Positions 2,939 to 49,804 of a DNA stretch of 64,000 bases are shown piece by piece. A program made the position numbers and the translations under genes. The stretch comes from Desulfoscipio geothermicus DSM 3669. Its GTDB lineage: Bacteria > Bacillota > Desulfotomaculia > Desulfotomaculales > Desulfallaceae. The first letter of the stretch is position 1, and the number at the start of each line of letters is the position of its first letter. The DNA lies in the NCBI RefSeq assembly GCF_900115975.1, contig NZ_FOYM01000004.1:62001-126000 (forward strand), in the 5' to 3' direction. Under the pieces are notes generated by a model. That model did not search any database. It was given only the letters and a program-made list of their open reading frames with translations, and was not told the origin of the DNA.

Positions 2939-3362
2939 TTCTTTCTCCCTTTACACTTAAACCAGTCCATCTTTGACCCCAACCGGTGGTTAAGATATAT
3001 TGCCCCGTGGCATAACCGAACCAGGTAAAAATAAATCCTACCAAAAGTGTCAGCCCCAGGTAAAGCAATGCCAATGGTGCAGAAGTTTGAAAAAGTACGA
3101 TGCCTTCCACACTGAGCGTAGAAAAAGTGGTAAACGATCCGATAAAGCCGGTGGCAACGGCTAGCACGAAATATGATTGGCCGCTTAATTTATGCAGCAC
3201 CAGGGTTAGGAATAAGGCAATAAAAAAACAACCCCCTACATTTACGGCAAAAGTCCCCCAGGGAAGCATACCTTTGTCATTTAATAATAAACTTATGGCA
3301 TAGCGGGCCAGTGCGCCTAAAATTCCACCCACACCAACGCTAAAAAAGCGCAATTGCATCAC
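2931..3362 (-). CDS. crcB: CrcB/Fluc fluoride channel subunit, partner copy
   Basis: A four-helix membrane protein of about 143 aa with GGILGALARY, AVNVGGCFF and GSFTTFSTLSVEG, the three Fluc signatures. It begins seven bases after the stop of the upstream UspA gene. GTG at 3362 and ATG at 3359 are both possible starts. Translation is probably coupled to usp, and its end overlaps the second crcB. Together the two subunits should form the dual-topology fluoride channel of the inner membrane. No fluoride riboswitch is visible before this operon, although two occur elsewhere in the window. Confidence 0.9.
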   Translation of the reverse strand: MMQLRFFSVGVGGILGALARYAISLLLNDKGMLPWGTFAVNVGGCFFIALFLTLVLHKLSGQSYFVLAVATGFIGSFTTFSTLSVEGIVLFQTSAPLALLYLGLTLLVGFIFTWFGYATGQYILTTGWGQRWTGLSVKGERNG

Positions 3363-3368
3363 CTTGTC

Positions 3369-3797
3369 TTATTTTACTACGGTTACCGGGCAGTGTGCCT
3401 GATGAATAACTTTATTGCTAACGCTGCCCAGCAGCATCCCCTTTACATTACCCAGCCCCCGGGTACCCATGACAATAAGATCAAAATCATGTTCCCGGGC
3501 ATATTCAATGATGCTTTTGGCAATATCTCCCTGCAATATAACCTTTTCCACTATTAATCCTTCGCTTTTAAATAATTCCACAGCACTTTGCAGCAAACGA
3601 TCTGTATTGATTTGTAACGCATTGTCAAATTCAGCTTCGTTGGCGCCAAGAAATTCTGCCTCATCCTTAGTGAAGGAAGCCACAATAATTATAGTACACC
3701 GGGCTTCCGGTATGCTTTTGTGCAAATCAACAGCAAACTTAGCCGCCCGCAGTGCATTTTGTGATCCATCAAACGCTAGAAAAATTTTTTTAATCAA
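3369..3797 (-). CDS. Universal stress protein UspA family, ATP-binding type
   Basis: A Usp-fold protein of about 142 aa. The segment [18 protein letters not shown] fits the G-2x-G-9x-G(S/T) ATP-binding motif of MJ0577-type Usp proteins. I place the start at TTG 3797 because the AAGGAG site is then eight bases away; TTG at 3803 would be too close. It heads an operon with two crcB genes. Usp genes are known companions of crcB in fluoride-responsive operons, so the context suggests fluoride or general stress. The C-terminal part of a related Usp survives next to the second HAD copy at 43.4 kb. Confidence 0.85.
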   Translation of the reverse strand: MIKKIFLAFDGSQNALRAAKFAVDLHKSIPEARCTIIIVASFTKDEAEFLGANEAEFDNALQINTDRLLQSAVELFKSEGLIVEKVILQGDIAKSIIEYAREHDFDLIVMGTRGLGNVKGMLLGSVSNKVIHQAHCPVTVVK

Positions 3798-3965
3798 GCA
3801 CAATTCTCCTTCCAGTGCAGTTACCGCAGGTAAAATATATAAGTTAGATATATATATTAATTATATCATATATAACGCTAATAAAAAAAGGAAGGTATTC
3901 ATACTTTGCCTTATTTTACAGGCATTGTGCAGCTTTTTAGTTTCGTAATGAAAAAAATTGCTACA

Positions 3966-7444: not shown

Positions 7445-7601
7445 ATTAACACCCCTGCCTTCCTTAATAAAAATGGTTAATAATATTTTCGCCACCCCAA
7501 AGGCTATTCCTGTGCAAAGGGACGGTGAAAATATTAGCCGTCTAAAAAGAGGGATTTTACCGGACAAAATCGAATTTTTCGTTGTATTTGTGTAGGAGCG
7601 G

Positions 7602-8324
7602 GTGGGGCCCATGCAGTTGGAAAAAAGACACCAGCTGGTGCTGTTAATTATCGCAGCGTTCATTTTATTCGGCGCCGGTTATAAATATGCTTTGATAAAG
7701 GAAATTAATTCAGCAGGGGATAAACCCCTGGTGATGTCAGCCGGCGGTGCGGAAAACGGCCGGGAGGTGTCCCCGGCAGGGGAACAGGGTAAAACCGCCG
7801 GCTCCGGGGAAATTGTAGTCCATGTGGTCGGGGCGGTGCAAAAACCCGGCTTGTACCGCTTGTCTCCCGGTTCCCGGGTGGGTGATGCCGTGCATCAGGC
7901 GGGCCCGACAAACGACTCGGCGTTGGATTACCTGAACCTGGCCGCCCCGCTGGAGGACGGCCGGCAAATTGTAGTGCCTTCTCTGGAGGATATCAAGAGC
8001 CGGCAATCAGCGGCCGCCGCAGTGCCGCAAAAGCCGGCTGGCAGCGTTGGGGCAGTTGCATCGGGATTGCCCGGCGCTGCGCCCGCGTCGCCACCCGCGT
8101 ATGCCGCGCCAGGCGGCACAGGCTCTGCCGGAAAAATAAATCTAAATACAGCCGGGACAGCCGAACTGGAAAAGCTGCCCGGTATCGGCCCGGCCCTGGC
8201 GCAAAGAATTATCGACTATCGCAACCAAAACGGCCCTTTTATGGTTCCGGAGGATATAAAAAATGTTTCCGGTATCGGGGACAAGCGTTTTGAACAAATC
8301 AAGGATATGATCTTTATAAATTGA
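7602..8324 (+). CDS. comEA: ComEA-type competence DNA-binding protein
   Basis: About 240 aa. A single N-terminal membrane helix (residues about 10-27) anchors the protein. A SLBB domain follows (VHVVGAVQKPGLYRLSPG, residues about 70-130), then an Ala/Pro-rich linker and a C-terminal double helix-hairpin-helix (INLNTAGTAELEKLPGIGP). This order is that of ComEA, the receptor that binds incoming DNA outside the membrane. GTG 7602 or ATG 7611 could be the start; an AGGAG site lies at 7594-7598. comEC follows after one intervening gene. Confidence 0.9.
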   Translation: MGPMQLEKRHQLVLLIIAAFILFGAGYKYALIKEINSAGDKPLVMSAGGAENGREVSPAGEQGKTAGSGEIVVHVVGAVQKPGLYRLSPGSRVGDAVHQAGPTNDSALDYLNLAAPLEDGRQIVVPSLEDIKSRQSAAAAVPQKPAGSVGAVASGLPGAAPASPPAYAAPGGTGSAGKINLNTAGTAELEKLPGIGPALAQRIIDYRNQNGPFMVPEDIKNVSGIGDKRFEQIKDMIFIN

Positions 8325-8345
8325 ACAGTGCATTGAATAATGACC

Positions 8346-8446
8346 AAAAAGGGACTGGCTCCGGTAAAAGGGGATAAAAGGGGGACAGGTACCGATTCAC
8401 AAAACGAATCGGAGCCAGTCCCCTTTTACGGTGCCTGTCCCCTTTT
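8346..8446. repeat. Complex palindromic repeat with GGGGACAGG/CCTGTCCCC arms
   Basis: GGGACTGGCT (8351-8360) pairs with AGCCAGTCCC (8413-8422), and GGGGACAGGTACCG (about 8380-8393) pairs with CGGTGCCTGTCCCC further right. The two pairings are interleaved, so only one can form at a time or they form a pseudoknot. CCGATTC/GAATCGG makes an inner hairpin. The element fills most of the gap between comEA and the DUF169 gene. The remainder, to 8677, is AT-rich and should hold the promoter of the next gene. Confidence 0.6.
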
Positions 8447-17231: not shown

Positions 17232-17290
17232 TTCATAAACTTCCCAATCTTTTCTCACAGTTTGTTCACAATTGGTGGGTAGAATATAGT
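17232..17290 (+). promoter_or_regulatory. Direct-repeat operator and promoter of the spy/two-component operon (site A)
   Basis: Hexamers lie 11 bases apart: TTCATA (17232), CCCAAT (17243, poor), CTCACA (17254), TTCACA (17265). CTCACA ends exactly 20 bases before TAGAAT (17280-17285), a plausible -10. The same layout recurs before the units at 28.4, 32.6 (minus) and 32.8 kb. The hexamer fits the TT(A/C/T)A(C/T)A boxes of PhoP-type OmpR regulators. The rest of the gap after larE shows nothing else. Confidence 0.65.
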
Positions 17291-17348
17291 TAGCACAGGG
17301 AAAATAACTAAAATTTCTGTGCAATCAGATGGGAAAGGAGGTGTAATA

Positions 17349-17815
17349 GTGAACAAGAAAATAGTGCTTTTGACCGTTACACTACTTTTGGTATTCGGTA
17401 TTGTCCAGGTGGCTGCGGCGGCCGGAATGGGCTGGGGTGGTAACGGCCCGCGTATGCTTAATAGCGATGACTGGGTCAGCCCGGTGCCTTAAATCTCACT
17501 GACCAGCAAATCGCTAAAATGCAGGAAATCAGGCAAAAAACCTACGCGCAAACCCGCGACCTGCGCATTAAGTTGATGGACAGCATGCAAGAGCTGAAGC
17601 AGCTACAGCTGCAGAAAAACCCGGACAAAGCCAAAATAGACGCCAAGATCAAGGAGATTAACGATCTGCGCGGCAAACTGTATGGCATCGCCCAGCAAAG
17701 CCGGGAGCAGTGCCAGTCTTTACTCACCCAGGAGCAGTTGGCCCAGATGGCCCAAAACAGGGGCAAATGGGGCCGCGGCTTTCGGGGAGGCTTTGGGGCC
17801 GGCAGCACCCAGTAA
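17349..17815 (+). pseudogene. Spy/CpxP-like envelope protein, frameshifted copy
   Basis: GTG behind GGAGGTG opens a frame with a signal peptide (KKIVLLTVTLLLVFGIVQ, cut after VAAAA), then GWGGNGPRMLNSDDWVSPV and a stop after 47 codons. The remaining sequence to 17815 continues the protein in another frame. Comparison with the intact copy at 48154 shows that four bases (GATG) are missing near 17486. The family (LTxxQ motif; here LTDQQ and LTQEQL) consists of helical periplasmic chaperone-like proteins; here it would be exported. It heads the two-component operon. A sequencing error cannot be excluded. Confidence 0.75.
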
Positions 17816-17835
17816 ATGATTTGTTTTGGTAACTG

Positions 17836-17873
17836 AAAAGGGAGGGACGGATTTTATGCGCCCTCCCCTTTTA
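17836..17873 (+). terminator. Hairpin between spy-like gene and response regulator
   Basis: AAAAGGGAGGG pairs with CCCTCCCCTTTT. The T-tract is part of the stem, so it may act as a partial terminator that sets the ratio of the abundant first gene to the regulator. The duplicate at 48645-48682 has the same hairpin. Confidence 0.5.
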
Positions 17874-17966
17874 ACAACGCCCATGAAGCTCAGTTCACGC
17901 CAGTAATATAAAAGTGCTACGGTTTTGCATTATCGTAAAAAGGACGGGGGTAAGGGAGGTGTAAAA

Positions 17967-18665
17967 ATGCAGGAATATGCCGGTAATATACTGGTTGTGG
18001 AAGATGAAGAACCGGTAAGGGAGCTGTTGCGGCTATACCTGGAAAAGGAAGGTTACCAAGTGGAAATAGCCGTGGATGGGGAAGAAGCCCTGCAAAAAGT
18101 GCCCAGCCGCCACCCGGACCTGATCCTTTTGGATATCATGCTGCCTAAAAAGGACGGCTGGGCAGTGTGCCGGGAAATCAGAAAACAACTTTCCATACCC
18201 ATTATTATGCTGACCGCCCGGGGAGAGGAGCTGGACCGGGTGCTGGGCCTGGAAATGGGGGCGGACGATTACATAACCAAGCCCTTTTCCCCCCGGGAAA
18301 TGGTGGCCCGGGTCAAAGCCGTGTTAAGGCGGGTGCACCAGGCGGAGGAAAAAAAAGACGCTGAGGTGATCACTTTACCAGGCCTAATCATAGATAACGC
18401 CGCCAAACAGGTGGAAATGAACGGGCAGGTTTTCTCCATGCCCCCCAAGGAGTTTGAGCTTTTGTGGTTTTTGGCCGCTAACCCGGACCGGGTTTTTACG
18501 CGGGAACAGCTGCTGCAGCAGGTTTGGGATTATGACTACCTGGGTGACCCTCGCACCGTGGACACGCATATCAAACGTTTGCGCGAAAAACTCAGCGCCC
18601 ATACGGGTAAGCGCTACATAAAAACGGTCTGGGGCCAGGGCTATAAATTTGAGGCAGGCAATTAA
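17967..18665 (+). CDS. OmpR/PhoP-type response regulator
   Basis: A 232-aa regulator. The receiver domain (residues about 5-120) has the acidic pair VVEDEE, phospho-acceptor Asp56 in LLDIMLPKKDG, the switch threonine in MLTARG and lysine in TKPFSP. The C-terminal winged helix (about 135-230) has the OmpR recognition segment DPRTVDTHIKRLREKL. The start at ATG 17967 follows GGAGGTG. It is followed without a gap by its kinase. The 11-bp direct repeats before this operon are of the type bound by such regulators, so autoregulation is likely. A receiver-truncated copy lies at 48717-49311. Confidence 0.92.
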   Translation: MQEYAGNILVVEDEEPVRELLRLYLEKEGYQVEIAVDGEEALQKVPSRHPDLILLDIMLPKKDGWAVCREIRKQLSIPIIMLTARGEELDRVLGLEMGADDYITKPFSPREMVARVKAVLRRVHQAEEKKDAEVITLPGLIIDNAAKQVEMNGQVFSMPPKEFELLWFLAANPDRVFTREQLLQQVWDYDYLGDPRTVDTHIKRLREKLSAHTGKRYIKTVWGQGYKFEAGN

Positions 18666-20438
18666 ATGTTCAAAAGTTTATTTAGCAAGCTAATGTCCAC
18701 CTACATCGCCATTATTTTAATCACCCTGCTGGTGCTGGGCCTGGCCATGTCCTACCTGTTGGGTGACTACTATTACTCTACTAAAGAGGCAGAGCTATTA
18801 AATAAAGGCCGGGAAGTGTCGCGCATTATGGCTGAAAACACCGGACAGAACCGGCCTGCCGCCGATGTAGTGGACATTTTAAACCGTTTTGGGGATAATC
18901 ACATGTCCTTAATCAACAGGGATAAGCTTTTACTGATGGCCCACAGCGAATTTTCCGGCACTTCGCGGCGTTTCTGGCTGGAACCGGTCGACGCCCAAAA
19001 GCTTCTGGATGGCCAAACCGTTTCCAGGCGGGGGTATCTCCCCCGTTTTGAACAACTGGTTATTTTTGCCGCCGTGCCTATGCTGGTAAATAACGAGGTG
19101 CAGGGAGCGCTGCTTCTGTCGGCCCCGATGGCCGATATCACCGATACCGTTGGGGCTGTGCGCCGGTTGATGTTCTTGGCCGCCCTGCCGGCCCTGTTGC
19201 TGGCGGCCCTGCTGGGTTTATTATTATCCCGTTCGGTGGCCCGGCCGCTGCGCCGGCTCAGTGAAGCCACCGTACAAATAGCGGACGGTGATTATAAACA
19301 GCGGGTGGAACTTAAGTCCGGTGATGAAATCGGCCACCTGGCGCAAAATTTCAACCGTATGGCTTTATCTCTGGAAGAGACCGTGGGCGCATTGGCCCTG
19401 GAAAAGGAGAAAATAGAAAACATTCTGGCCCACATGGCCGAAGGGGTGGTAGCTGTAGACGGCGCCAACCGGGTGATTTTACTTAACAATCGGGCGGCCC
19501 GCACCTTCGGGTTGGGGGAATCCGCAGACTTTTTAGCGCAAGCCTACGGGGAACCCGTCCCGGATAAACAGTTGCATGAATTGTTTGCCAAGGTTCTAGC
19601 ATCCGGGGAGCCGTGCAGCAGGGAATATACACCTGATGGCGGGCGGACTTATACCCTGGCCCATATTTCTCTGCTAACTGACCAGACAGGCTACAGCTTC
19701 GGTGCCGTGGGCGTGTTGCAGGATATTACCGAATTAAGGAAACTGGATCAACTGCGCCGGGACTTCGTGGCCAACGTATCCCACGAATTGCGTACTCCCC
19801 TCACTTCGGTCCAGGGTTACGTGGAAGCCATGCTGGATCGCGCCATCCCTGGCGAGGACCAAGACAAGTACCTGACCATTATCCACCGGGAAACGCTGCG
19901 CCTAAAAAAATTAATCTATGACCTGTTGGATTTATCGCGGATTGAATCGCGTAAGGAAAGATGGGATATGAACGAAATAGACGTACCGGAACTTGTGGAC
20001 CAGGTATTGGTAAAACTGCGACCGCTTATAAAAAAGCAGCAGGTAACTGTTGACAGGTATTTTCCGGACCAGTTGCCGCCAATGCTGGGCAACGAAGACC
20101 GCATTGAACAGGTGCTGGTGAACCTGCTGGACAACGCCGTAAAATTTTCATGCCCCGGCGGGAAGGTTACGGTGCGGGCGCAGGCGCAGGATGATAACAT
20201 CACGGTCAGTATCGCCGACCAGGGGCCGGGCATCCCGCCCGAAGACCTGGAACATATTTGGGAGCGCTTTCACCGGGTGGAGAAATCCCGTTCCCGGGCT
20301 TTGGGGGGTACGGGGCTGGGGCTGGCCATCGCCCGGCAAATTGTGGAGGCCCACGGCGGTAAAGTAAGCGTGCAGAGCGAAGCGGGCCAGGGGTCCACCT
20401 TTAGTTTTACTATGAAAACTGTACCGGCTGAAATATAA
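18666..20438 (+). CDS. Membrane sensor histidine kinase (PhoR/ResE type)
   Basis: A 590-aa kinase whose ATG directly follows the regulator stop. Helix 1 (residues about 10-32) and helix 2 (about 170-192) enclose an external sensing domain of about 135 residues. HAMP (about 193-245), PAS (about 255-360), HisKA with the phosphorylated histidine His373 in [10 protein letters not shown], and HATPase_c ([48 protein letters not shown]) follow. The layout is that of PhoR/ResE/VicK kinases. Neighbouring Spy-like protein and MacAB-type exporter suggest it senses envelope or antimicrobial stress. The signal is not known. Confidence 0.92.
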
Positions 20439-20483
20439 GGTTAAAGGATCATGGTAATTTTTTCAGCCAGTGGGGGGGGTAAT

Positions 20484-20702
20484 ATGCACCACTCGATTAC
20501 GGGTTTTAACCTGGGAAATTGGTTGTGGCCCATCATGATTATCGGTATCGTTGGTTTGGTTTACCTGGTGGCCAAATGTGGTAAGCAAGATCTTTCCACC
20601 CTTGACGAGGAGGAAATAGCGGCTGAACAATGCCCCAACCTGTACGCGGAGCTGATTCAGCTTAGGGAAGAAGTGCAGCGGCTAAAGGGTAAATCGCCAT
20701 AG
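20484..20702 (+). CDS. Small membrane protein with coiled tail
   Basis: About 72 aa. After a short N-terminus (MHHSITGFNLGN) comes one membrane helix (WLWPIMIIGIVGLVYLVAKC), then an acidic cytoplasmic tail ending in a likely helical segment LYAELIQLREEVQRLKG. A run of G before ATG 20484 is the probable ribosome-binding site; an upstream ATG at 20451 has none. It sits between the sensor kinase and the exporter genes. It resembles small accessory membrane proteins of stress operons. I do not recognise a family. Confidence 0.6.
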   Translation: MHHSITGFNLGNWLWPIMIIGIVGLVYLVAKCGKQDLSTLDEEEIAAEQCPNLYAELIQLREEVQRLKGKSP

Positions 20703-20841
20703 AAGCCACAGGTAACAGGAAATAAAATGCACCGGGTAGCCTTTGGTAAGCAAAAAAGATGGCCACACTAGACAGACGGGTTGCTATTGTGAAATTTTGC
20801 AAAATAACAAGTCCACTACAGAAAAAATACTAGAGAAGGTG

Positions 20842-21381
20842 ATGATAAGTTTGCGCCTTAAAAAAGTCATATTCTTGCTCATTAGCCTGCTTGTTTTTGT
20901 ACTGCTTCAGGGCTGTAATTCAGGAAGCAATGATACCGCCAATGCCCCCGCGCAAAGCTCCGGCCAGTCCTCCCAAAATGTAACCCGGTGGGGTGGTCCG
21001 GAAAGGCCGGCGGATTTATGGGGCCAGGTCAAGACCATTCGGGGCAACAAACTGACTGTTTTTAAAGTGGAAAACAACATTGCTCAAACGGAGGAAGAAA
21101 GGGAAGCGCTGCGGGGTCAAATGCAGTCTTTAAGCCCTGAGGAAAGGGCCCAGGCCCGGGCGGAGCGGATTAAGGTGAGTGACGAAACGGTGGACATTAT
21201 CATCCCGGTGGGCGTGCCGGTGATCGCCACCGGTAATTTTGGCGGGGAAGCCGCGGAAGTGGACATTTCCCAAATTAAACAGGGCGACATAGTTAAATTC
21301 TGGCTGGAAGAGGAACCTTCTGGCGAGGGGGAGTCAATGGCTGAATTTGTGCAAATTAATCAAGGCGGCTATGGTCAGTAG
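20842..21381 (+). CDS. Putative lipoprotein of the envelope operon
   Basis: About 180 aa. The N-terminus LRLKKVIFLLISLLVF ends in a lipobox VLLQGC, so it should be a lipid-anchored surface protein. A Ser/Asn/Ala-rich linker follows, then a domain with VKTIRGNKLTVFKVENN and SPEERAQARAERI. The latter is an LTxxQ-like stretch, and the domain has OB-like strands thereafter. TTG 20851 is an alternative start with a better-spaced AAGGTGATG site. Its place before the ABC exporter genes suggests a role in substrate handling or sensing. No family name can be given. Confidence 0.6.
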   Translation: MISLRLKKVIFLLISLLVFVLLQGCNSGSNDTANAPAQSSGQSSQNVTRWGGPERPADLWGQVKTIRGNKLTVFKVENNIAQTEEEREALRGQMQSLSPEERAQARAERIKVSDETVDIIIPVGVPVIATGNFGGEAAEVDISQIKQGDIVKFWLEEEPSGEGESMAEFVQINQGGYGQ

Positions 21382-21399
21382 CTTTATGGGGGCTAATTT

Positions 21400-22098
21400 A
21401 TGATTGTGATGCGAGATATCGTCAAAATATATAAAAACGGCCTGCTGGAATTAAAGGCCCTGGATCAGGTCAGCTTAACGGTGTCCAAAGGGGAATTTGT
21501 CGCCATCACAGGCACCTCCGGATCGGGTAAATCCACTCTGATGCACATCATGGGCTGTCTCGACCGGCCCAATGCCGGGGAATATTTCCTGGACGGGGAA
21601 GATGTACTGGCCTGCCCCGAACAAAAGCTGGCCGCCGTGCGCAACTGCAAAATAGGATTTGTGTTTCAAAAGTTTAATTTACTGCCCAAGCTGGACGCCC
21701 AGACCAACGTGGAAATCCCGCTAATTTACCGGGGCGAGGATAGGAGCGTTTCCCGGGAGCGGGCCGCCCGGCTCCTGGAAATGGTGGGCCTGGGCGACCG
21801 GCTGCGCCACCGGCCCAACGAACTGTCCGGAGGCCAGCAGCAGCGGGTGGCCATCGCCCGGGCGCTAATCGGCGATCCCCCTTTGATTTTAGCCGACGAA
21901 CCCACGGGGAACCTGGACTCCCGCTCGGGGGCGGAAATCATGGAACTGTTTAAACAACTGAACAACCAGGGGCGTACCTTGGTTTTAATCACCCATGACC
22001 AGGACATTGCCCGGCAGGCCAACCGGATTATTTACCTGCAGGACGGCCGGGTGATACCGGCCTCCGGGGGTACTGCAGCGAAAAGAGAGGTGAGTTGA
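21400..22098 (+). CDS. MacB/LolD-type ABC transporter ATPase
   Basis: A 232-aa nucleotide-binding subunit. Walker A is GTSGSGKST (residues about 38-46), the Q-loop lies in GFVFQKFNLLP, the signature is LSGGQQQRVAIARAL, Walker B is LILADEPTGNLD, and the switch histidine is in LITHD. It belongs to the MacB/LolD/FtsE subfamily that drives mechanotransmission rather than ordinary transport. It is followed two bases later by the MacA-like gene and then by the permease, forming an ABC type VII exporter. Confidence 0.92.
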   Translation: MIVMRDIVKIYKNGLLELKALDQVSLTVSKGEFVAITGTSGSGKSTLMHIMGCLDRPNAGEYFLDGEDVLACPEQKLAAVRNCKIGFVFQKFNLLPKLDAQTNVEIPLIYRGEDRSVSRERAARLLEMVGLGDRLRHRPNELSGGQQQRVAIARALIGDPPLILADEPTGNLDSRSGAEIMELFKQLNNQGRTLVLITHDQDIARQANRIIYLQDGRVIPASGGTAAKREVS

Positions 22099-22099
22099 C

Positions 22100-23314
22100 T
22101 TGAGTCTACCGGAAAAGCTGACTGGCTTAAAAAATAAAAAAACATTTCTAATCATAGCAGCGGCTTTGTGTCTTTCCATTGCCCTTGGCCTGTATTCTTT
22201 TGCGGTCGGCCGCGGTGGGGAAGCGGTGGCCGAAGAAATAAAGGAAGTAACGGTAAAAAAGGGGGAGCTGAAAATTGACCTGGCCGCGGACGGTAAAGCC
22301 GAACTGGACACGGTGGGGCTGAATTTTCAAATTAATGGAGTAATTAAGGAAATCTCCGTCCAACCGGGTGATCAAGTTAAGGCCGGGGATATCATTGCCC
22401 GGCTGGACGCGGAAAAATACCAGCTGGAGTTGGAAGCCGCCCGGGCGGGTTACGAAGCGGCCCGGGCCAAGCTGGCTAAAGCCAAAGATGATTATAACAA
22501 TAAACTGATCGCGGCCAAGGAAAAAATGGACAACGCCATGCTGGTCTACCAGCCCATGAGCGAAGTGCCCGACATTTTCCCGGCGCAGGAAGTGGCTTTA
22601 AAAAAACTGGCCGCGGACAGCGCCCGGGAGGCCTATGAAGCGGCCAAGCGGGCCACTTCAGATATCCAAATGGAAGAAGCCGCTGTGGCCCAGGCCCTGG
22701 TTAACCTGAAAAAGGCGGAAAAGAACCTGGAGGATACTGTGTTAAGAGCCCCGGTGAACGGTACAGTGCTCTACATTGCCAATAAGGTGGGGGAAACCGT
22801 GTCCGGCGGAGGGGATAATGCGGACAAACAATTTGCCGTGGTGTCCACCGGCGATGCCGTGACGGTTATTTCCCAGGTCCTGGAGCTGGATATTGCCGAG
22901 GTGACACTGGGCCAGGCGGCGGAGGTGGAGTTTGAAGCCCTGCCGGGTGAGACATTTTCTGGTAAAGTTGGCGGTATTGAAGCATTGCCTGTTTCAGACC
23001 CTAGCGGCATTGTCGCGTATGAGGTCAGTATACTGCTTGATCAGCCCGACGCCCGGATTAAAAACGGCATGACGGGGGCCGTGTCCTTGATCATTGAACA
23101 AAAGAAAGATGTATTAATTATTCCCAACGCAGCGGTGAAAAGGGTGGACGGCGCGGCAGTGGTGGAAATGTATAACGAGGCCGGTGAAATTGTGACCCGA
23201 AAGGTTAAGACGGGCTTTACCGATGGCAGTAACGTGGAAGTGATTGACGGCTTGCAGCAGGGAGATAAAGTGGTCATCCGGACCAGGCCCGCCGGCCAGG
23301 GGGGTAAGGTGTGA
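22100..23314 (+). CDS. MacA-like periplasmic adaptor (HlyD/RND-MFP family)
   Basis: About 404 aa with TTG start. An N-terminal membrane anchor (residues about 15-33) is followed by a first half-lipoyl motif (EISVQPGDQVKAGDIIARLD). Next come an alpha-helical hairpin of about 100 residues rich in Ala, Lys and Glu, the second half (VLRAPVNGTVLYIANKVGETV), and beta-barrel and membrane-proximal domains. Such adaptors link a MacB permease to an outer channel in Gram-negatives; in Firmicutes they act in antimicrobial peptide export or resistance. The end overlaps the macB-like start by four bases. Confidence 0.88.
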   Translation: MSLPEKLTGLKNKKTFLIIAAALCLSIALGLYSFAVGRGGEAVAEEIKEVTVKKGELKIDLAADGKAELDTVGLNFQINGVIKEISVQPGDQVKAGDIIARLDAEKYQLELEAARAGYEAARAKLAKAKDDYNNKLIAAKEKMDNAMLVYQPMSEVPDIFPAQEVALKKLAADSAREAYEAAKRATSDIQMEEAAVAQALVNLKKAEKNLEDTVLRAPVNGTVLYIANKVGETVSGGGDNADKQFAVVSTGDAVTVISQVLELDIAEVTLGQAAEVEFEALPGETFSGKVGGIEALPVSDPSGIVAYEVSILLDQPDARIKNGMTGAVSLIIEQKKDVLIIPNAAVKRVDGAAVVEMYNEAGEIVTRKVKTGFTDGSNVEVIDGLQQGDKVVIRTRPAGQGGKV

Positions 23315-24504
23315 AATACAGTGAACTGATTAAAATGGTCTTTGTAAACATCTACGCCAATAAATTCCGGGCCTTTCTCACCGCCCTGGGCATTATTGTG
23401 GGCGCGGCTACCATTTTGCTGGTGGTGGCCGTGGGCAAGGGCGGCGAGGCCTCGGTGGCGGAGCAGTTTGCCAAACTTAACGCCGGCACCATTTATGTCA
23501 TGTCCGCCCGGGGGAGCGATATGTACAGAAAGCCCTTAACCACCACCGATGTGGAGGCCATCAAAGAAAAAGCGCCCTCGGTGGAAATGGTCACCATAGC
23601 TATTAATGGCAAGGTTGAAGCTAGTTATAACGACATCACTTTTCAGGGCGATGCGATCGGCGCCTTTCCCGAATACCAGGCCCTGAGCAACCTGAAACTG
23701 CAAGCGGGCGCGTTCATCAGCGATGAAGACAATGAGCAAAGAAACCGGGTGGCCGTGCTGGGGGCGGAACTGGCCGAAGAGTTGTTCGGCGGTGATGCGG
23801 CGGCCGCCGTGGGCAGTACCGTCAAAATCGACCGGCGCAACTTCCAGGTTATCGGGGTGCTGGAGCGGCTGGGGGACGCCACGGGCGGCGTCAATACCGA
23901 TGAAAGTGCTATTGTGCCGTACGTGGTGGCGGAAAAATATATCCTAGGCGCCAACGTGTACCCCCGCATGATCGCCCTGGCCAGGGATTTGGAAAGCGTG
24001 CCCTCGGCCATGCGGGAAATTGCCGGGGTGCTCCGGGAAACGCACCGTATCCGCGGGCAGGATGACTTTATGATCAGGGATGCCGGCAGCCGCCTGGCCG
24101 CGGCCCAGGATACGGCCCGCACCATGTCCGTACTGCTGGTCATCGTAGCCACTATAGTGCTGATCGTGGGCGGCATCGGCATCATGAACGTCATGTTTGT
24201 CTCAGTCAAGGAGCGCACCAGGGAGATCGGCATCTTAAAGGCCATCGGGGCCAGGAAAACCGATATCCTGCTCCAGTTTTTGCTGGAGGCGGTAATCATC
24301 AGCCTGGCCGGAGGGGTGATTGGGGTGGCCCTGGGCGCGCTGGTGGTCCCCCTGATGCAGTATTTTGATTTGCAGGCTATGCCGACTCCGCTGGGTGGAA
24401 TTTTGGGGCTGGTTTTCTCCGTGTTCACGGGCACTTTTTTCGGCTATTACCCGGCCCTGAAAGCCGCGGGCTTAAGCCCGCTGGAGGCATTGAGTCACGA
24501 ATAA
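23311..24504 (+). CDS. MacB-like permease (FtsX fold)
   Basis: A 397-aa membrane subunit. Helix 1 lies near residues 15-40 (FRAFLTALGIIVGAATILL), an extracellular MacB core domain covers about 45-260, and three helices follow with the FtsX signature ([25 protein letters not shown]), ending SPLEALSHE. GTG start overlaps the adaptor stop. With the ATPase and adaptor it forms a MacAB-type exporter for peptides or lipophilic toxins. Two fragments of this gene are present in the condensed duplicate at 49.3 kb. Confidence 0.9.
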   Translation: MKYSELIKMVFVNIYANKFRAFLTALGIIVGAATILLVVAVGKGGEASVAEQFAKLNAGTIYVMSARGSDMYRKPLTTTDVEAIKEKAPSVEMVTIAINGKVEASYNDITFQGDAIGAFPEYQALSNLKLQAGAFISDEDNEQRNRVAVLGAELAEELFGGDAAAAVGSTVKIDRRNFQVIGVLERLGDATGGVNTDESAIVPYVVAEKYILGANVYPRMIALARDLESVPSAMREIAGVLRETHRIRGQDDFMIRDAGSRLAAAQDTARTMSVLLVIVATIVLIVGGIGIMNVMFVSVKERTREIGILKAIGARKTDILLQFLLEAVIISLAGGVIGVALGALVVPLMQYFDLQAMPTPLGGILGLVFSVFTGTFFGYYPALKAAGLSPLEALSHE

Positions 24505-24512
24505 CGCGAATA

Positions 24513-24586
24513 AAGGTGCCTGTCTGGCACTCCTTAATTTCGACAAAAAACGGATATTAAAAATTATTGTCGGTGCCAGGCATCAA
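24513..24586. repeat. GGTGCCTG/CAGGCATC inverted repeat
   Basis: GGTGCCTGtctGGCAC at the left end and GTGCCAGGCATC at the right end can pair around an AT-rich centre. A shortened relative follows the macB fragment at 49520-49550, so the element was copied with the operon. Confidence 0.55.
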
Positions 24587-32742: not shown

Positions 32743-32811
32743 AAAAAGCGTAAGAGCCCGGCGGGATAGCCCACAGAACAGTTTTTTAAGTTAAGGAGGG
32801 AATTGATACAA

Positions 32812-33279
32812 GTGAAAAAGAAGATGATAGTTTTAACTGTAACGCTGGTGCTGGTCCTCGGCATCGCCCAGGTGGCCTCGGCTGCCGGCATGGGCTGGGG
32901 CGGCGGCCCGCGGATGCTGGACAGTGACAACTGGGTCAGCCCGGTGGAGGCCTTGAACCTGACCGACCAGCAAATTGAAACAATGCAGCAGTTACAAAAG
33001 AGTTCTTATGAGCAAACCGGGGACCTGCGGGACAAGTTGCGCGACTTAATGTTTGACCTGCGGCAGTACCAGCTGCAAAAGGACCCCGACCAGGCCCAGA
33101 TCGACGCCAAGATTAAACAAATTAATGATCTGAGAAGCCAGTTGTACAATATCAAGGCGCAAAACAGAGAGCAGATGCAGTCCCAGCTGACCACTGAGCA
33201 GTTGGCGGAGATGGCTAAAATGAGGGGTTTCGGTAAACACGGGGCCCGTGGATTTGGCGGTTTTAGTGGAACCAATTAA
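32812..33279 (+). CDS. Spy/CpxP-like exported helical protein, second paralogue
   Basis: About 155 aa. A signal peptide (MIVLTVTLVLVLGIAQVASA) is followed by the motif GMGWGGGPRMLDSDNWVSPV shared with the 17.3- and 48.1-kb copies. A helical domain follows with LTDQQIETMQQLQ and LTTEQLAEM, the paired LTxxQ-type motifs of Spy/CpxP, and a Gly/Phe-rich tail. GTG 32812 is chosen by homology with the paralogues and its spacing to AAGGAGGG; TTG 32803 is too close. Spy proteins prevent aggregation of exported proteins; here it probably acts between membrane and wall. It is the intact Spy copy with an intact TTCACA promoter. Confidence 0.8.
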   Translation: MKKKMIVLTVTLVLVLGIAQVASAAGMGWGGGPRMLDSDNWVSPVEALNLTDQQIETMQQLQKSSYEQTGDLRDKLRDLMFDLRQYQLQKDPDQAQIDAKIKQINDLRSQLYNIKAQNREQMQSQLTTEQLAEMAKMRGFGKHGARGFGGFSGTN

Positions 33280-43396: not shown

Positions 43397-43545
43397 CTAC
43401 TTAACCACTAATACAGGACAGTGCGACTGTTGGATAACCCTTCGGCTAACGCTGCCCAGCAGCATACCTTTAAAGTCGCCGCGCCCCCTGGTGCCGACAA
43501 CAATTAAGTCGCAATTATTATTACAGCCATCCGCAACCTTATCAA
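43397..43545 (-). pseudogene. UspA C-terminal fragment
   Basis: Starting right after the HAD stop codon, the minus strand reads [20 protein letters not shown] and on to SHCPVLVVK and a stop, about 49 residues. It equals the end of a UspA protein, including the ATP-binding motif, and resembles the intact UspA at 3.4 kb. The N-terminal two-thirds are missing, joined out to the HAD gene by deletion. The order HAD-usp next to a fluoride riboswitch repeats the fluoride gene set of the window start. Confidence 0.75.
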
Positions 43546-44016
43546 CTACAGGCGTAGGGTTGCAATCAAACGTTTGGGCTGCAGCAGCAGCTCCAGTCCT
43601 TCATTAATATCTTTTACCGCCACATCAGCATTTTGCAGCGCCTGCACGGAAGTTCCCTCCGGCCCTAAAACCACAATGCCCAGGGCCGCTTTTGCCAGCA
43701 TCAGCCTGTCGTTGGCGCCGTTGCCCACCGCCACTGTATGCTCTGCCCCCAGGCGTTCCACAAAGGCTTCTTTTTCATCGCCCCCGATCGGCTGGGCCAG
43801 GATCTGAACGGTGCCTTTGATGCCTTTGCATTCACTCCGGCACTTGCCGAAGGTGTCGGCAGTAAGGATGTGTACTTCGAGACTCTCGCTGAGCTGATTT
43901 AACCTTTCTTCGACGCCGGGCAGCAGTATGCCGTCTTTGGCCATCGTGCCGTTATAATCCAGCACGATGTATTTTAGCTGCAGCATGCCGCGGCCGGGTA
44001 TATCCACGGAAATCAC
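43546..44016 (-). CDS. HAD-family soluble P-type-ATPase-like phosphatase, copy 2
   Basis: 156 aa, nearly identical to the gene at 2017-2487: motif [12 protein letters not shown] and motif [19 protein letters not shown] are intact. The GGAGGTG site and the GTG start are also shared, and similarity begins at the ribosome-binding site, so the copies come from a duplication in inverted orientation. Here the gene follows an XRE regulator in a unit led by a fluoride riboswitch. That supports a role in fluoride tolerance, perhaps hydrolysis of a fluoride-inhibited phosphate compound, which is inference. Confidence 0.8.
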
Positions 44017-44074
44017 GCTTTACACCTCCTTTCGATGGGAATTATTTGCGCGCTGGCGCCTTCACCCAACTTGA

Positions 44075-44661: not shown

Positions 44662-44740
44662 CAAAAAAGCTCCTACCAAACCCGTTAAAGGTGGTAGGAG
44701 CTATTAGCTTTGCAGCGTTAAGCGAGCTCCATCGCTGTAA
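44662..44740 (-). ncRNA. Fluoride (crcB-motif) riboswitch with terminator, controlling XRE-HAD unit
   Basis: The minus strand reads GCGATGGAGCTCGC, then TTAACGCTGC, then AAAGCTAATAGCTCCTACC. This is the fluoride aptamer pattern with its GATGG...TCGC first hairpin and the conserved GCTAAT...CTCCTACC end. The last arm AGCTCCTACC can instead pair with GGTAGGAGCT to form a terminator stem (44702-44668) followed by TTTTTT. Fluoride binding would free the aptamer side and allow read-through, as in the known ON-switches. It lies about 70 bases before the XRE start. Confidence 0.85.
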
Positions 44741-45112
44741 TATGTAACTTATAACAAATGTAATTGCCCGGAAAGAAACAGTCAATTGTCATATTCTGCA
44801 AAAAATAATGATTATAACCATCCCATGCCTTTGTGCTCGCTTATCCTGGACTATTCTCTAATTTATAATGTTTAATTTGTCATTTAACAATTGTTATTTA
44901 CAATTGCCGCCTTGTTTCATTCCCCGTACAGACATGGTTTAAATGTTTGCCATTGGGGCATAGCGCGGTAACCTAAAACTTCTCTAATATAACTGCACTT
45001 AATATAACATGCACCTGTAAGCAAAGTGGATACCCGGGGTCTTAATTTGTTTTATGCTTGACAAGTATGTGCAATTGTTTAATAATGTTTGTAACTATTG
45101 TTAGTAAGGAAT
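44741..45112. other. Gap without recognisable gene
   Basis: About 370 AT-rich bases. No coding frame of protein-like composition and no stable hairpin is seen. It should contain the promoter of the riboswitch transcript (a TTGACT lies near 44806 on the minus strand with poorly spaced -10). Confidence 0.4.
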
Positions 45113-45246: not shown

Positions 45247-45267
45247 TAACTTATGGAGGTGAAATCT

Positions 45268-45801
45268 GTGGAATGGTTGATTTTAATCTATAAAATACCG
45301 GCTGAGCCTTCCCGGTACCGGGCGTCGGTTTGGAGAAAAATTAAGGAGATCGGGGCGGTTTACCTGCAAAATTCAGTTTGCATCCTGCCGTTTAACAAAA
45401 AAACCGAGCGGGTCTTTCGCAAGATTAAAAATGAAATTGAAAATTACGGCGGTGAGGGGTATTTGATCAAGGCTGATTTTATCGGCCCGGAAAACAAAAT
45501 CATTAATTTGTTTAACGACACCAGGGACGAAGAATATGCCGAGATAATTGAGAAGTGCCACGATTTTTTCTATGAACTGGATGCTGAGGCAAAAGCAGCG
45601 CATTTTACCTATGCCGAGCTGGAAGAAAATGAAGAGGATTTGAAAAAGCTGTACAACTGGTTTGAAAAGGTGCGGGAGCGGGATTATTTCACTTCATTCC
45701 TGCAGGAAAAAACCTACCAACTGCTGGCATCATGCCGGGCTTGCCTGGATAATTTTGGCGACCAGGTGTTCGCCCGGGAAGATATGGACAACATTGATTA
45801 G
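45268..45801 (+). CDS. ChrB-like protein (chromate resistance regulator N-domain)
   Basis: About 177 aa. The segments WLILIYKIPAEPSRYRASVWRKIKEIGAVYLQNSVCILP and ERVFRKIKNEIENYGGEGYL are typical of the ChrB N-terminal domain. Only that domain is present. GTG 45268 is chosen because GGAGGTG precedes it at the right distance, while ATG 45253 overlaps that site. The family is linked to chromate resistance, and an MFS transporter follows within 85 bases, which would be its natural partner. Whether chromate is the ligand here is unsure. Confidence 0.75.
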   Translation: MEWLILIYKIPAEPSRYRASVWRKIKEIGAVYLQNSVCILPFNKKTERVFRKIKNEIENYGGEGYLIKADFIGPENKIINLFNDTRDEEYAEIIEKCHDFFYELDAEAKAAHFTYAELEENEEDLKKLYNWFEKVRERDYFTSFLQEKTYQLLASCRACLDNFGDQVFAREDMDNID

Positions 45802-45884
45802 TCTTTGCGGAGCCGGCCAAATTGCAGCAAATAATAATGACAAATGGTGGGGACCATGATGTCAGAAAGGTGGTTTGGTATTAA

Positions 45885-47048
45885 ATGTTTAACATAATTA
45901 TCCTCGGGCTGACCAGTTTATTAACCGATATTGGCTCCGAAATGGTCTACCCCTTAATTCCGCTGTTTTTAGTGCAGCAGCTGGGGGCCACCCCGGCTGT
46001 TGTCGGATTAATCGAGGGGATAGCCGAGAGCCTGGCTTCCCTGCTTAAAGTTTTTTCCGGTCGGGTATCCGATAAACTGCAGCGCCGCAAGCCGCTGGCC
46101 ATAGCAGGTTACGCTTCTTCCGCGTTATCGAAAATTCTCATCATTGCGGCGGTCTCCTGGGCCTGGGTGCTGGCGGGACGCATCGGGGACCGTTTTGGCA
46201 AAGGGATCAGGACCGCTCCCCGGGATGCCATTATTGCCGATTCCACCGACCCGCGTCAAAAGGGCAAATCCTTCGGACTGCACCGGATGCTGGACACCGC
46301 CGGAGCAGTAATCGGGGTTGCCCTGGCTTATTACTTGTTTACATCATATCAGGGGGATTACCGTCATGTATTCATCTGGTCATTGGTTCCGGCTTTCCTC
46401 GGTGTGCTGATTTTGGCGCTGGTGCGCGAGGCCAAAGAAAAAACGCCTAAAAGTTCGATTAAGGACGTGCCGCTGAATTGGCAATCTTTAAACCCGCGCT
46501 TAAAAGGTTTTTTAATTGTCGTTTTTCTTTTCGCCCTGGGCAATTCATCCAACCAGTTTCTGCTGCTGCGGTCCTCGGACCTGGGGATGCACCCGGCACA
46601 GGTTATTTTACTGTACCTGGTATTTAACGTCAGCTACGCCCTTGTTTCCTTCCCGGCGGGCGTGTTATCGGATAAAATCGGCCGGCGGCAGTTATTGATT
46701 ACCGGCTATTTAATTTATAGCGCCGTTTATTTTGGTTTTGCCCGGGTGCACGATGCCGGCCATCTATGGCTATTATTCATTATTTACGGGCTGTATCACG
46801 GGGTAACGGAAGGCGTGGAAAAAGCTCTTGTGGCCGATGTGGCGCCACAACAACACAGGGCCACCATGCTGGGATTGCATGCCACTTTGGTGGGCATCGG
46901 ATTGCTGCCGGCATCCCTTTTGGCCGGTTTGATCTGGCATTACTTTGGCGCTGCCTATACATTTTATTTCGGGAGTGTTATGGGCCTGCTGGCGGCGCTG
47001 GGCCTGGCGGTGGTGCTAAAAATGGAGGACACCAAACAAGCCGGTTAA
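45885..47048 (+). CDS. MFS transporter, multidrug/resistance type
   Basis: 387 aa with twelve helices. The MFS motif A region reads GRVSDKLQRRKPLAIAGY in the first half and GVLSDKIGRRQLLITGY in the second. GDRFGKGIRTAPRDAIIAD lies after helix 4, a segment typical of a subgroup linked with chromate or metal resistance. It follows the ChrB-like gene and probably shares its transcript. The substrate cannot be determined. Confidence 0.82.
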   Translation: MFNIIILGLTSLLTDIGSEMVYPLIPLFLVQQLGATPAVVGLIEGIAESLASLLKVFSGRVSDKLQRRKPLAIAGYASSALSKILIIAAVSWAWVLAGRIGDRFGKGIRTAPRDAIIADSTDPRQKGKSFGLHRMLDTAGAVIGVALAYYLFTSYQGDYRHVFIWSLVPAFLGVLILALVREAKEKTPKSSIKDVPLNWQSLNPRLKGFLIVVFLFALGNSSNQFLLLRSSDLGMHPAQVILLYLVFNVSYALVSFPAGVLSDKIGRRQLLITGYLIYSAVYFGFARVHDAGHLWLLFIIYGLYHGVTEGVEKALVADVAPQQHRATMLGLHATLVGIGLLPASLLAGLIWHYFGAAYTFYFGSVMGLLAALGLAVVLKMEDTKQAG

Positions 47049-47107
47049 TGTATTTGGCGAAAATAAATATAACTAACAGAGAGCTAGCAAAGCTACATCG
47101 TTTAGCC

Positions 47108-47150
47108 CGTGTTATTGCGAGGAGTTAAGCGACGCGGCAATCTATACTTC
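47108..47150. repeat. ATTGCGAGGAG...CGACGCGGCAAT repetitive palindrome
   Basis: The sequence GTTATTGCGAGGAGTTAAGC followed by GACGCGGCAATCT has the form of a widespread intergenic palindrome of the type ATTGCGAGGAGC-n-GCGACGCGGCAAT. It adjoins copy 4 of the GGGGACA element. Confidence 0.6.
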
Positions 47151-47158
47151 ATAGGAAA

Positions 47159-47212
47159 GGGGACACACCTCCTCTTTAGGGTTTGCAGATTTGGGGTCGG
47201 AGGAATGTCCCC
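47159..47212. repeat. GGGGACACACCT palindrome, copy 4
   Basis: GGGGACACACCTCCTC and GGAGGAATGTCCCC enclose about 24 bases. It lies 75 bases before the YueI-like gene. Confidence 0.65.
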
Positions 47213-47286
47213 AAATACTGCCGCGCTACGCCTATAATGACAAAAGCGGGGCGAGGAAGATATATACCACCGAAAGAGGTTTAAAC

Positions 47287-47883
47287 ATGACAGAACAAGA
47301 TATTCAAGCGGAAGCAATTGGCACATGGATGAATAAAAATGAACTGGAAAAAGCACTGGCCATAGGTATTTACGGGCCTCCGGAACTCAAACACGATGAA
47401 AAAGTTCATTACCTGGGAGAATTTAAGGAGCGGGTTATCAGGCTGCTGACCAGGAAGCAGGTGGCGGAACCGGCCATTTACCCGGAAATAATTGAGGCCC
47501 TAAAGGACAAAAGGGCTGCCAGATTGGTCATCAATGGCGACATTGCTGATTGCTTTATTGAAAAATACGAGGAATTGGCCCGGAAATTGGGAAAGCCTTA
47601 CACGGTGGTGCATGACCCGGAATTAAAAGGGGAAGCCGGTTTAGCCGTGGTCAGCAACGATGCCGTAGACGTAGAAGAATTTAATGTGCCGGATAGAGAA
47701 ATAAGGTTAAGTAAACTGGGGCTTTCCAAAGCTTTAATTAATGCTGCGGGAAAAAAAGTTTGCTCGCATTGCTTAGAAAAAATTATTCGTGCCGACCCCG
47801 GCGAAGTTATCAATTATCATAAGCTTACTATGTCAGATCGTTTTTGGGGGGAGCATTGCCGGGCCTGTGCAAGTAAACCATAA
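47287..47883 (+). CDS. YueI/DUF1694-family protein with Cys-rich tail
   Basis: About 198 aa. The body matches the YueI/DUF1694 family: IYGPPELKHDEKVHYLGEFKERV and AARLVINGDIADCFIEKYEELA. The C-terminal 50 residues are extra, with CSHCLEKIIR and HCRACASKP, two CxxC-like pairs that could bind zinc. ATG 47287 follows GAGG. Function of the family is unknown. The gene ends before the second fluoride riboswitch. Confidence 0.7.
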   Translation: MTEQDIQAEAIGTWMNKNELEKALAIGIYGPPELKHDEKVHYLGEFKERVIRLLTRKQVAEPAIYPEIIEALKDKRAARLVINGDIADCFIEKYEELARKLGKPYTVVHDPELKGEAGLAVVSNDAVDVEEFNVPDREIRLSKLGLSKALINAAGKKVCSHCLEKIIRADPGEVINYHKLTMSDRFWGEHCRACASKP

Positions 47884-47939
47884 GCCGTAACAGTTTTTAA
47901 AGGCAAGCTTTTAGAGTAATTTAATATCAAATGAATTTC

Positions 47940-47967
47940 TTGACTATCTAAACCAAAGTGATATAAA
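47940..47967 (+). promoter_or_regulatory. Promoter of the second fluoride riboswitch
   Basis: TTGACT (47940-47945), 16 bases, TATAAA (47962-47967), then the aptamer begins 19 bases further on. Confidence 0.6.
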
Positions 47968-47985
47968 ATTACCCCAAAAATAACC

Positions 47986-48062
47986 AGGCGATGGGGCCCG
48001 CCGTAGAACCGCCGGTCAGGCTAATAGCTCCTACCAACTTGTGGTGGGAGCTGTTTTTTTTT
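47986..48062 (+). ncRNA. Second fluoride riboswitch with terminator, now in front of a captured spy-like gene
   Basis: GGCGATGGGGCCCGCC forms the first hairpin, followed by GTAGAACCGCC and GGCTAATAGCTCCTACC, the conserved closing part of the fluoride aptamer. AGCTCCTACCA can alternatively pair with TGGTGGGAGCT (48042-48052) and is followed by ten T, a strong terminator. The original downstream gene is missing; 90 bases later begins the duplicated spy-like gene. The riboswitch itself looks functional. Confidence 0.87.
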
Positions 48063-48153
48063 ATGCAATGCACAGGCAATAATATTTTTTTAAAGGCCCC
48101 AAACATAAAACCAATTTACTAAGGAGGAATCAGATGGGAAAGGAGGTGTAATA

Positions 48154-48624
48154 GTGAACAAGAAAATAGTGCTTTTGACCGTTACACTACTTTTGGTATT
48201 CGGTATTGTCCAGGTGGCTGCGGCGGCCGGAATGGGCTGGGGTGGTAACGGCCCGCGTATGCTTAATAGCGATGACTGGGTCAGCCCGGTGGATGCCATA
48301 AATCTCACTGACCAGCAAATCGCTAAAATGCAGGAAATCAGGCAAAAAACCTACGCGCAAACCCGCGACCTGCGCATTAAGCTAATGGACAGCATGCAGG
48401 AGCTGAGGCAGCTACAGCTACAGAAAAACCCGGACAAAGCCAAAATAGACGCCAAGATCAAGGAGATTAACGATCTGCGCGGCAAGCTGTACGGCATCGC
48501 CCAGCAAAGCCGGGAGCAGTGCCGGTCTTTACTTACCCAGGAGCAGTTGGCCCAGATGGCCCAAAACAGGGGCAAATGGGGCCGCGGCTTTCGGGGAGGC
48601 TTTGGGGCCGGCAGCACCCAGTAA
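48154..48624 (+). CDS. Spy/CpxP-like exported helical protein, intact copy of the 17.3-kb gene
   Basis: 156 aa. Signal peptide KKIVLLTVTLLLVFGIVQ with cut after VAAAA, then GMGWGGNGPRMLNSDDWVSP, a helical domain with LTDQQIAKMQEI and LTQEQLAQM (LTxxQ motifs), and a Gly-rich end. It differs from the broken 17.3-kb gene by a few bases and by four extra bases (GATG) that keep the frame. Similarity to that locus begins just 26 bases before the GTG, so the TTCACA promoter was not copied. The nearest promoter is that of the fluoride riboswitch. Ribosome-binding site GGAGGTG is intact. Confidence 0.82.
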   Translation: MNKKIVLLTVTLLLVFGIVQVAAAAGMGWGGNGPRMLNSDDWVSPVDAINLTDQQIAKMQEIRQKTYAQTRDLRIKLMDSMQELRQLQLQKNPDKAKIDAKIKEINDLRGKLYGIAQQSREQCRSLLTQEQLAQMAQNRGKWGRGFRGGFGAGSTQ

Positions 48625-48644
48625 ATGATTTGTTTTGGTAACTG

Positions 48645-48682
48645 AAAAGGGAGGGACGGATTTTATGCGCCCTCCCCTTTTA
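48645..48682 (+). terminator. Hairpin copied with the spy-like gene
   Basis: Same AAAAGGGAGGG/CCCTCCCCTTTT hairpin as at 17836-17873. Confidence 0.5.
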
Positions 48683-48716
48683 ACAACGCCCATGAAGCTC
48701 AGTTTACGCCAGTAAT

Positions 48717-49311
48717 ATTGGATGGGGAAGAAGCCCTGCAAAAAGTGCCCATTCGCCACCCGGACCTGATCCTTTTGGACATCATGCTGCCCAAAAAGGA
48801 CGGCTGGGCAGTGTGCCGGGAAATCAGAAAACAGCTTTCCATACCCATAATTATGCTCACCGCCCGGGGAGAGGAACTGGACCGGGTGCTGGGCCTGGAA
48901 ATGGGGGCGGACGATTACATAACCAAGCCCTTTTCCCCCCGGGAAATGGTGGCCCGGGTTAAAGCCGTATTAAGGCGGATGCACCACGCGGAGGGAAAAA
49001 AAGACGCTGAGGTTATCACATTACCCGGTTTGATCCTAAATAACGCCGCCAAACAGGTGGAAATGAACGGGCAGGTTGTCTCCATGCCCCCCAAGGAGTT
49101 TGAGCTGTTGTGGTTTTTGGCCGGTAACCCGGACCGGGTTTTTTCGCGGGAACAGCTGTTGCAGCAGGTTTGGGAATATGACTACCTGGGTGACCCCCGC
49201 ACCGTGGATACGCATATCAAACGTTTGCGCGAAAAACTCAGCGCCCATATGGGTAAACGCTATATCAAAACGGCCTGGGGCCAGGGCTATAAATTTGAGG
49301 CAGGTAATTAA
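48717..49311 (+). pseudogene. Response regulator duplicate lacking the first 35 codons
   Basis: Relative to the intact gene at 17967, about 164 bases including the start, its ribosome-binding site and the acidic pocket are missing; the join lies after AGTAATAT at 48718. From DGEEALQKVP onward the copy is open to its normal stop and retains LLDIMLPKKDG and the whole winged helix (DPRTVDTHIKRLREKL). TTG 48718 could start a truncated product with intact DNA-binding domain but a crippled receiver. If made, it might compete with the full regulator. Confidence 0.8.
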
Positions 49312-49521
49312 ATGTCGGCCCAGGATACGGCTCGCACCATGTCCGTACTACTGGTCATTGTAGCCACCATAGTGCTGATCGTGGGCGGCATCGGCATCAT
49401 GAACGTTATGTTTGTCTCGGTCAAGGAACGTACCAGGGAGATCGGCATTTTAAAGGCCATCGGGGCCAGGAAAACGGATATTTTGCTTCAGTTTTTGCTG
49501 GAGGCGTTAAGCCACGAATAA
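49312..49521 (+). pseudogene. MacB permease fragment fused to a kinase start codon
   Basis: The ATG is the former start codon of the duplicated histidine kinase, joined after one base to macB sequence ([19 protein letters not shown]). The fragment covers the penultimate part of MacB with [16 protein letters not shown], then jumps from FLLEA directly to the gene end (LSHE). Two internal deletions have thus removed about 5.4 kb and about 0.2 kb. The 69-aa product would have one membrane helix and no function of MacB. Confidence 0.8.
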
Positions 49522-49804
49522 AGGTGCCTGGCACTCCTTAATTTCAATAAAAATAGATATTAAACATTGTTTTTTATCTTTCGGGTAAAGCCGGGTGTTG
49601 GTAAAGAGACCGCATTCGGTAAAGTTTTTTTGTTGGTTTGTGATCATAAGCCCGTCATTCCATTCATGGAGGAGTAACCGGCATTCATCACCCACTTTAA
49701 AAGTGGTGTCTTCTACCGAGAGCTGATAAAAAGAATAGCCGGCAGTATCTTGCAAATTACCGCAAAATGCTGCCGGCTATAAGTTTAGAGTGTTTTTGAC
49801 TAAA
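49522..49804. other. Gap after the condensed duplicate
   Basis: The first 40 bases continue the homology with the region after macB (GGTGCCTGGCACTCCTTAAT). The rest may contain a relic on the minus strand (reads VEDTTFKVGDECRLLLHEW and on), which I cannot assign, and the ADH terminator. Confidence 0.35.
49726..49778 (-). terminator. Terminator of the alcohol dehydrogenase gene
   Basis: On the minus strand AGCCGGCAG and CTGCCGGCT form a stem with a long loop, followed by ATTCTTTTT. Confidence 0.7.

Follow-up and report, generated by a model that had tools for sequence, protein, structure and literature searches.

A fluoride riboswitch, probably taken over from an enolase, precedes a copied spy-like gene in Desulfoscipio geothermicus

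We analysed a window of 64,000 nucleotides (positions 62,001–126,000 of contig NZ_FOYM01000004.1) from Desulfoscipio geothermicus DSM 3669, whose 3.65-Mb genome is assembled in 83 contigs and which is the sole member of its genus in the genome set compared; relatives in the family include Desulfotruncus, Desulfallas and Desulfoscipio. Using the RF01734 covariance model, we found two fluoride riboswitches in the whole genome, both inside this window. The stronger aptamer, on the forward strand at 47978–48040, scores 48.9 bits (E = 1.6e-10; gathering score 34). Its transcript would start from a promoter-like TTGACT-18-TAAAAT (47940–47969, forward strand; 10 of 12 consensus matches), which is the only sigma-70-like match across 47800–48760, where about 1.4 would be expected by chance, and which is conserved in Desulfotruncus alcoholivorax. 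An intrinsic terminator with its T run spans 48023–48061 (forward strand), the hairpin itself (48023–48055) having 14 pairs, -21.9 kcal/mol and a z score of -6.1. These results uphold a preliminary description of this DNA, which had placed a good promoter, a fluoride aptamer and a strong terminator in front of a spy-like gene.

The 3′ pseudoknot strand of the aptamer, CTCCTAC, lies inside the 5′ arm of the terminator, so that pseudoknot and terminator exclude one another in this expression platform; in a pattern test, 52 of 101 riboswitches of the order showed this arrangement. As the TAATAG directly before CTCCTAC is the commonest variant among the parsable riboswitches of the order, the aptamer is not degenerate at this point. 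Riboswitches of the fluoride class are transcriptional ON switches, in which fluoride stabilises the pseudoknot and the terminator fails. We infer that the layout at 47978–48055 is such a switch for the spy-like gene, with ligand response and read-through to match: without fluoride the terminator would form and spy would be off, while with fluoride the aptamer pseudoknot would hold CTCCTAC, no terminator would form and polymerase would run on into spy.

The gene behind the terminator (48154–48624, forward strand) is intact and encodes a protein of 156 amino acids. This Spy-like protein matches PF13801 (Metal_resist; 53.3 bits, cut-off 29.2) and PF07813 (LTXXQ; 28 bits, cut-off 24.3), and its alignment profile weakly matches ZraP-like, CpxP and Spy structures. 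It carries two LTxxQ motifs, LTDQQ and LTQEQ, and a hydrophobic N terminus that ends in AAAAG and, read by eye, is consistent with export. The start codon is the GTG at 48154, with its own Shine–Dalgarno sequence AAAGGAGGTG, and a mini-ORF of five codons, MGKEV (48134–48151, forward strand), has its stop two bases ahead of this GTG. A strong hairpin at 48643–48683, between spy and a truncated response regulator gene, is also present in the native operon and may be an attenuator or terminator.

Self-comparison of the window related this locus to the operon at 17323–24568, of which it holds four collinear fragments: 48128–48718 (97.5% identical), 48719–49315 (94.1%), 49316–49510 (92.8%) and 49515–49571 (82%). 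The captured spy corresponds to 17323–17909; behind it stand a response regulator relic without its N terminus (48719–49311, forward strand; copy of 18073–18665) and macB remnants with their 3′ flank (49316–49571, forward strand; copy of 24101–24295 and 24507–24568). The locus is therefore what is left of a copied whole spy–response regulator–histidine kinase–ABC–macB operon, diverged and with most of the later genes deleted, and no fresh copy of a single gene. The preliminary description had spoken of a duplicated spy-like gene; a second copy does exist, but more than one gene was copied. Two of its other points were borne out, namely that homology with the source begins only 26 bases before the start codon (48128, equivalent to 17323) and that the original is frameshifted: in the native spy (17349–17815, forward strand), a 4-base deletion and one substitution near 17486 bring a frameshift and a stop. 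Its claim that the captured gene is the only intact copy is true for this version of spy but not overall, since a third paralogue (32803–33279, 66% identical) is intact too, with a perfect TTCACA-N5-TTCACA upstream.

Over the 106 codons that follow the frameshift, 8 codons distinguish the spy copies, 6 of the changes being synonymous and 2 non-synonymous (dN/dS 0.07); dN/dS between the copies is 0.14 for the response regulator and 0.02 for macB. These low values suggest that most of the divergence between the operon copies arose while selection opposed changes to the proteins, and that they decayed later. The first 164 bases of the two spy copies are identical and the rest of the operon copy is diverged, which suggests gene conversion between them; the low ratio for spy may in part stem from gene conversion, or from selection at a time when the native copy was still whole. 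The same 164 identical bases, in a genome of 83 contigs, would also fit an assembly artefact that joined two loci at a repeat. This is very unlikely, because the two copies share one contig and one orientation, and exchanging the flanks of such direct repeats would leave a separate 30.8-kb circle; moreover, the copy has deletions and substitutions of its own and the join, described below, has an ordinary microhomology structure.

The gene normally behind this riboswitch, which the preliminary description had proposed to seek in relatives, is an enolase in Desulfotruncus alcoholivorax DSM 16058 (G006), where the orthologous riboswitch leads into such a gene. Both genomes have a ChrB–MFS pair between two divergent fluoride riboswitches, the ChrB–MFS–DUF1694 genes of the window lying at 45253–47883 (forward strand), upstream of the stronger riboswitch. 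Alignment of the two leaders extends through AAGGAGGAATC, which is the ribosome-binding site of the enolase, so that the rest of the former enolase leader survives in the window at 48062–48131 (forward strand) and ends in this Shine–Dalgarno sequence (48121–48131). Past AATC, the Desulfotruncus sequence runs TTTTTTATG into enolase and the window runs AGATGGG, like the spy source, which reads TGTGCAATCAGATGGG at the join position. Because AATC is common to both parents, we placed the join on this 4-bp microhomology (48128–48131, forward strand). As a result of the fusion, the enolase Shine–Dalgarno sequence stands six bases before the ATG of the mini-ORF (48134), which may, with this good Shine–Dalgarno sequence behind its initiation, couple that of spy.

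The enolase of D. alcoholivorax is broken, with roughly residues 177–317 missing and the frame changed; it lies behind the riboswitch at 7525–8371 of locus L019. Its identity is 80–85% with a riboswitch-linked enolase from another family (G095) and 66–69% with housekeeping enolases. As it resembles the former more than the housekeeping enolase of D. alcoholivorax itself, it appears to be part of a transferred cassette. Riboswitch–enolase pairs also occur in G074, G075, G077 and G095, and both enolase and universal stress genes have been documented under fluoride riboswitches (PMC5533749, PMC11139923). The genome of D. geothermicus has one enolase, a housekeeping gene on another contig, and a search of the window for an enolase remnant returned chance-level matches only.

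The native spy has, 95 bases upstream, the regulatory repeat CTCACA-N5-TTCACA (17254–17270, forward strand; 1 mismatch of 12). The TTCACA-N5-TTCACA repeat recurs with 0–2 mismatches 71–112 bases upstream of its own paralogue and of eight genes of relatives; several other relatives have no clear repeat upstream of spy, so it is common and not universal. In the 350 bases before the captured spy the repeat is absent, the best match having 4 mismatches, as in shuffles. The TTCACA promoter was thus left behind, as had been proposed. In three relatives, response regulator and histidine kinase genes come after spy, and the old control of spy therefore probably lay with the adjacent two-component system.

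These data also bear on the reverse history, in which spy was ancestrally under the riboswitch and the 17-kb copy is derived. Although the riboswitch-linked copy is indeed the intact one, we rejected this pairing as scarcely credible. None of 39 other spy loci (some of them the same genome twice, so that the independent genomes are fewer) has a fluoride riboswitch in its flanks; orthologues have the TTCACA element and, in three relatives, the two-component genes downstream; and the orthologous riboswitch precedes enolase, whose leader and Shine–Dalgarno sequence are still in the window.

An independent promoter at 48063–48140 would count against riboswitch control of spy. A strict sigma-70-like scan between the terminator and the spy start codon found none, and in a relaxed scan of the leader (48021–48153) the best site matched 7 of 12 positions, not above shuffles. 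The riboswitch could nevertheless be a bystander, with spy unexpressed or transcribed from a leader promoter that escaped recognition, as such scans would miss promoters of other sigma factors. We regard this as unlikely: no sigma-70-like site in 48021–48153 rises above background, and read-through from the upstream genes must also pass the riboswitch terminator.

We therefore favour, with good confidence, a history in which a riboswitch–enolase cassette was fused to a copy of the spy operon, the enolase was lost, the original spy broke and the captured spy became fluoride-switched. The ancestral cassette (promoter, aptamer, terminator, leader and ribosome-binding site) would have driven a fluoride-type enolase. 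It would have fused at AATC, just past the enolase ribosome-binding site, to a spy–response regulator–histidine kinase–macB operon copy that starts 26 bases ahead of the spy start codon. This position would have lost its enolase, the genes further along the copied operon would have decayed and the original spy would have been frameshifted. Fluoride now probably switches spy on in place of the old promoter, with translation from the gene's own Shine–Dalgarno sequence, perhaps aided by the mini-ORF. That rearrangement set spy behind the riboswitch had already been suggested, and the riboswitch–enolase arrangement of D. alcoholivorax and the position of the join agree with it. Our sequence comparison directly shows the parts and their join, and also that the old promoter element was lost and what became of both copies.

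The second riboswitch (44688–44745, reverse strand; 34.1 bits) precedes an XRE-type regulator gene and a HAD-like gene; compared with D. alcoholivorax, the dynamin gene between these two and the CPA2 antiporter gene after them are gone. The HAD-like gene occurs twice in inverted orientation (2000–2487 and 43546–44033, 90% identical), one copy staying with the riboswitch and the other standing beside crcB–crcB–Usp (2570–3803), and the fluoride island of D. alcoholivorax is therefore split over 41 kb here. The crcB pair in the window has no recognisable riboswitch. A fragment of a universal stress protein gene lies at 43412–43504, downstream of the HAD-like gene.

The neighbourhood is decaying, having lost enolase, parts of the second fluoride operon and the greater part of the copied one, so the riboswitch–spy fusion could be a transient by-product. 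It is possible, though on balance doubtful, that the riboswitch works and the fusion is neutral, the enolase having been useless already and fluoride control of spy bringing no benefit and being due to decay. The broken orthologous enolase of D. alcoholivorax and the decay of genes elsewhere in the copied operon and in the fluoride island fit this view, whereas among the copied genes spy alone has stayed complete, most of its differences from the native copy are synonymous, and promoter, aptamer and terminator are still intact. The stronger version of our reading, which we hold tentatively and just short of an even call, is that illegitimate recombination recruited the riboswitch and transferred control of an envelope stress protein from a two-component system to fluoride, with selection keeping the circuit and the old copy silenced. 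Making the Spy-like protein under fluoride stress may bring a benefit.

We surveyed 113 genomes of the order and read 101 fluoride riboswitch loci, taking as the gene behind each riboswitch the longest same-strand ORF starting within 600 bases; widening the search to the class reached no genomes beyond these 113. The commonest were genes for dynamin-like GTPases (25) and CPA2-type antiporters (22), followed among various others by universal stress proteins (7) and enolase (5, four by classifier plus L103); crcB was rare (3 of 101). Only the present locus has spy behind its riboswitch (1 of 101). In two genomes of different families the riboswitch is followed by a dihydroxy-acid dehydratase gene (ilvD-like; L020 5913–7813 and L161). 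The parts are known, and no other riboswitch–spy combination turned up in the genomes searched; the literature searched held no report of a Spy-family protein linked to fluoride and nothing close to riboswitch capture by rearrangement.

The gain of new target genes by riboswitches is usually deduced from scattered distributions. Here the donor, the recipient, the join, the lost gene and the abandoned promoter element are all readable at base level, and a close relative preserves the earlier riboswitch–enolase arrangement. The locus also suggests, in a way that can be tested, that the reach of fluoride stress extends to the cell envelope.

The locus resembles several known systems and departs from each. 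It shares with transcription-terminator riboswitches of RF01734 (crcB RNA motif) the aptamer score, the pseudoknot strand in the terminator arm and the promoter just upstream, but its target is of the Spy/Metal_resist type, found behind none of the other riboswitches among the 101. Like Spy, CpxP and ZraP, which are encoded beside two-component systems, the protein has the family sequence, LTxxQ motifs and a hydrophobic N terminus, and its native copy adjoins response regulator and histidine kinase genes; the intact copy, in contrast, has a riboswitch ahead of it and no longer the conserved promoter element. The cassette derives from a unit such as the riboswitch-controlled enolase of fluoride operons (Enterobacter cloacae FRM, PMC5533749), with enolase leader and Shine–Dalgarno sequence kept, but spy now stands in place of the enolase. 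The capture of promoters by duplicated and rearranged genes is a general phenomenon in bacteria, with PMC11111574 as one example; as there, a gene copy would have gained new expression from other regulatory DNA, whereas the element captured in this case is a riboswitch that senses a ligand.
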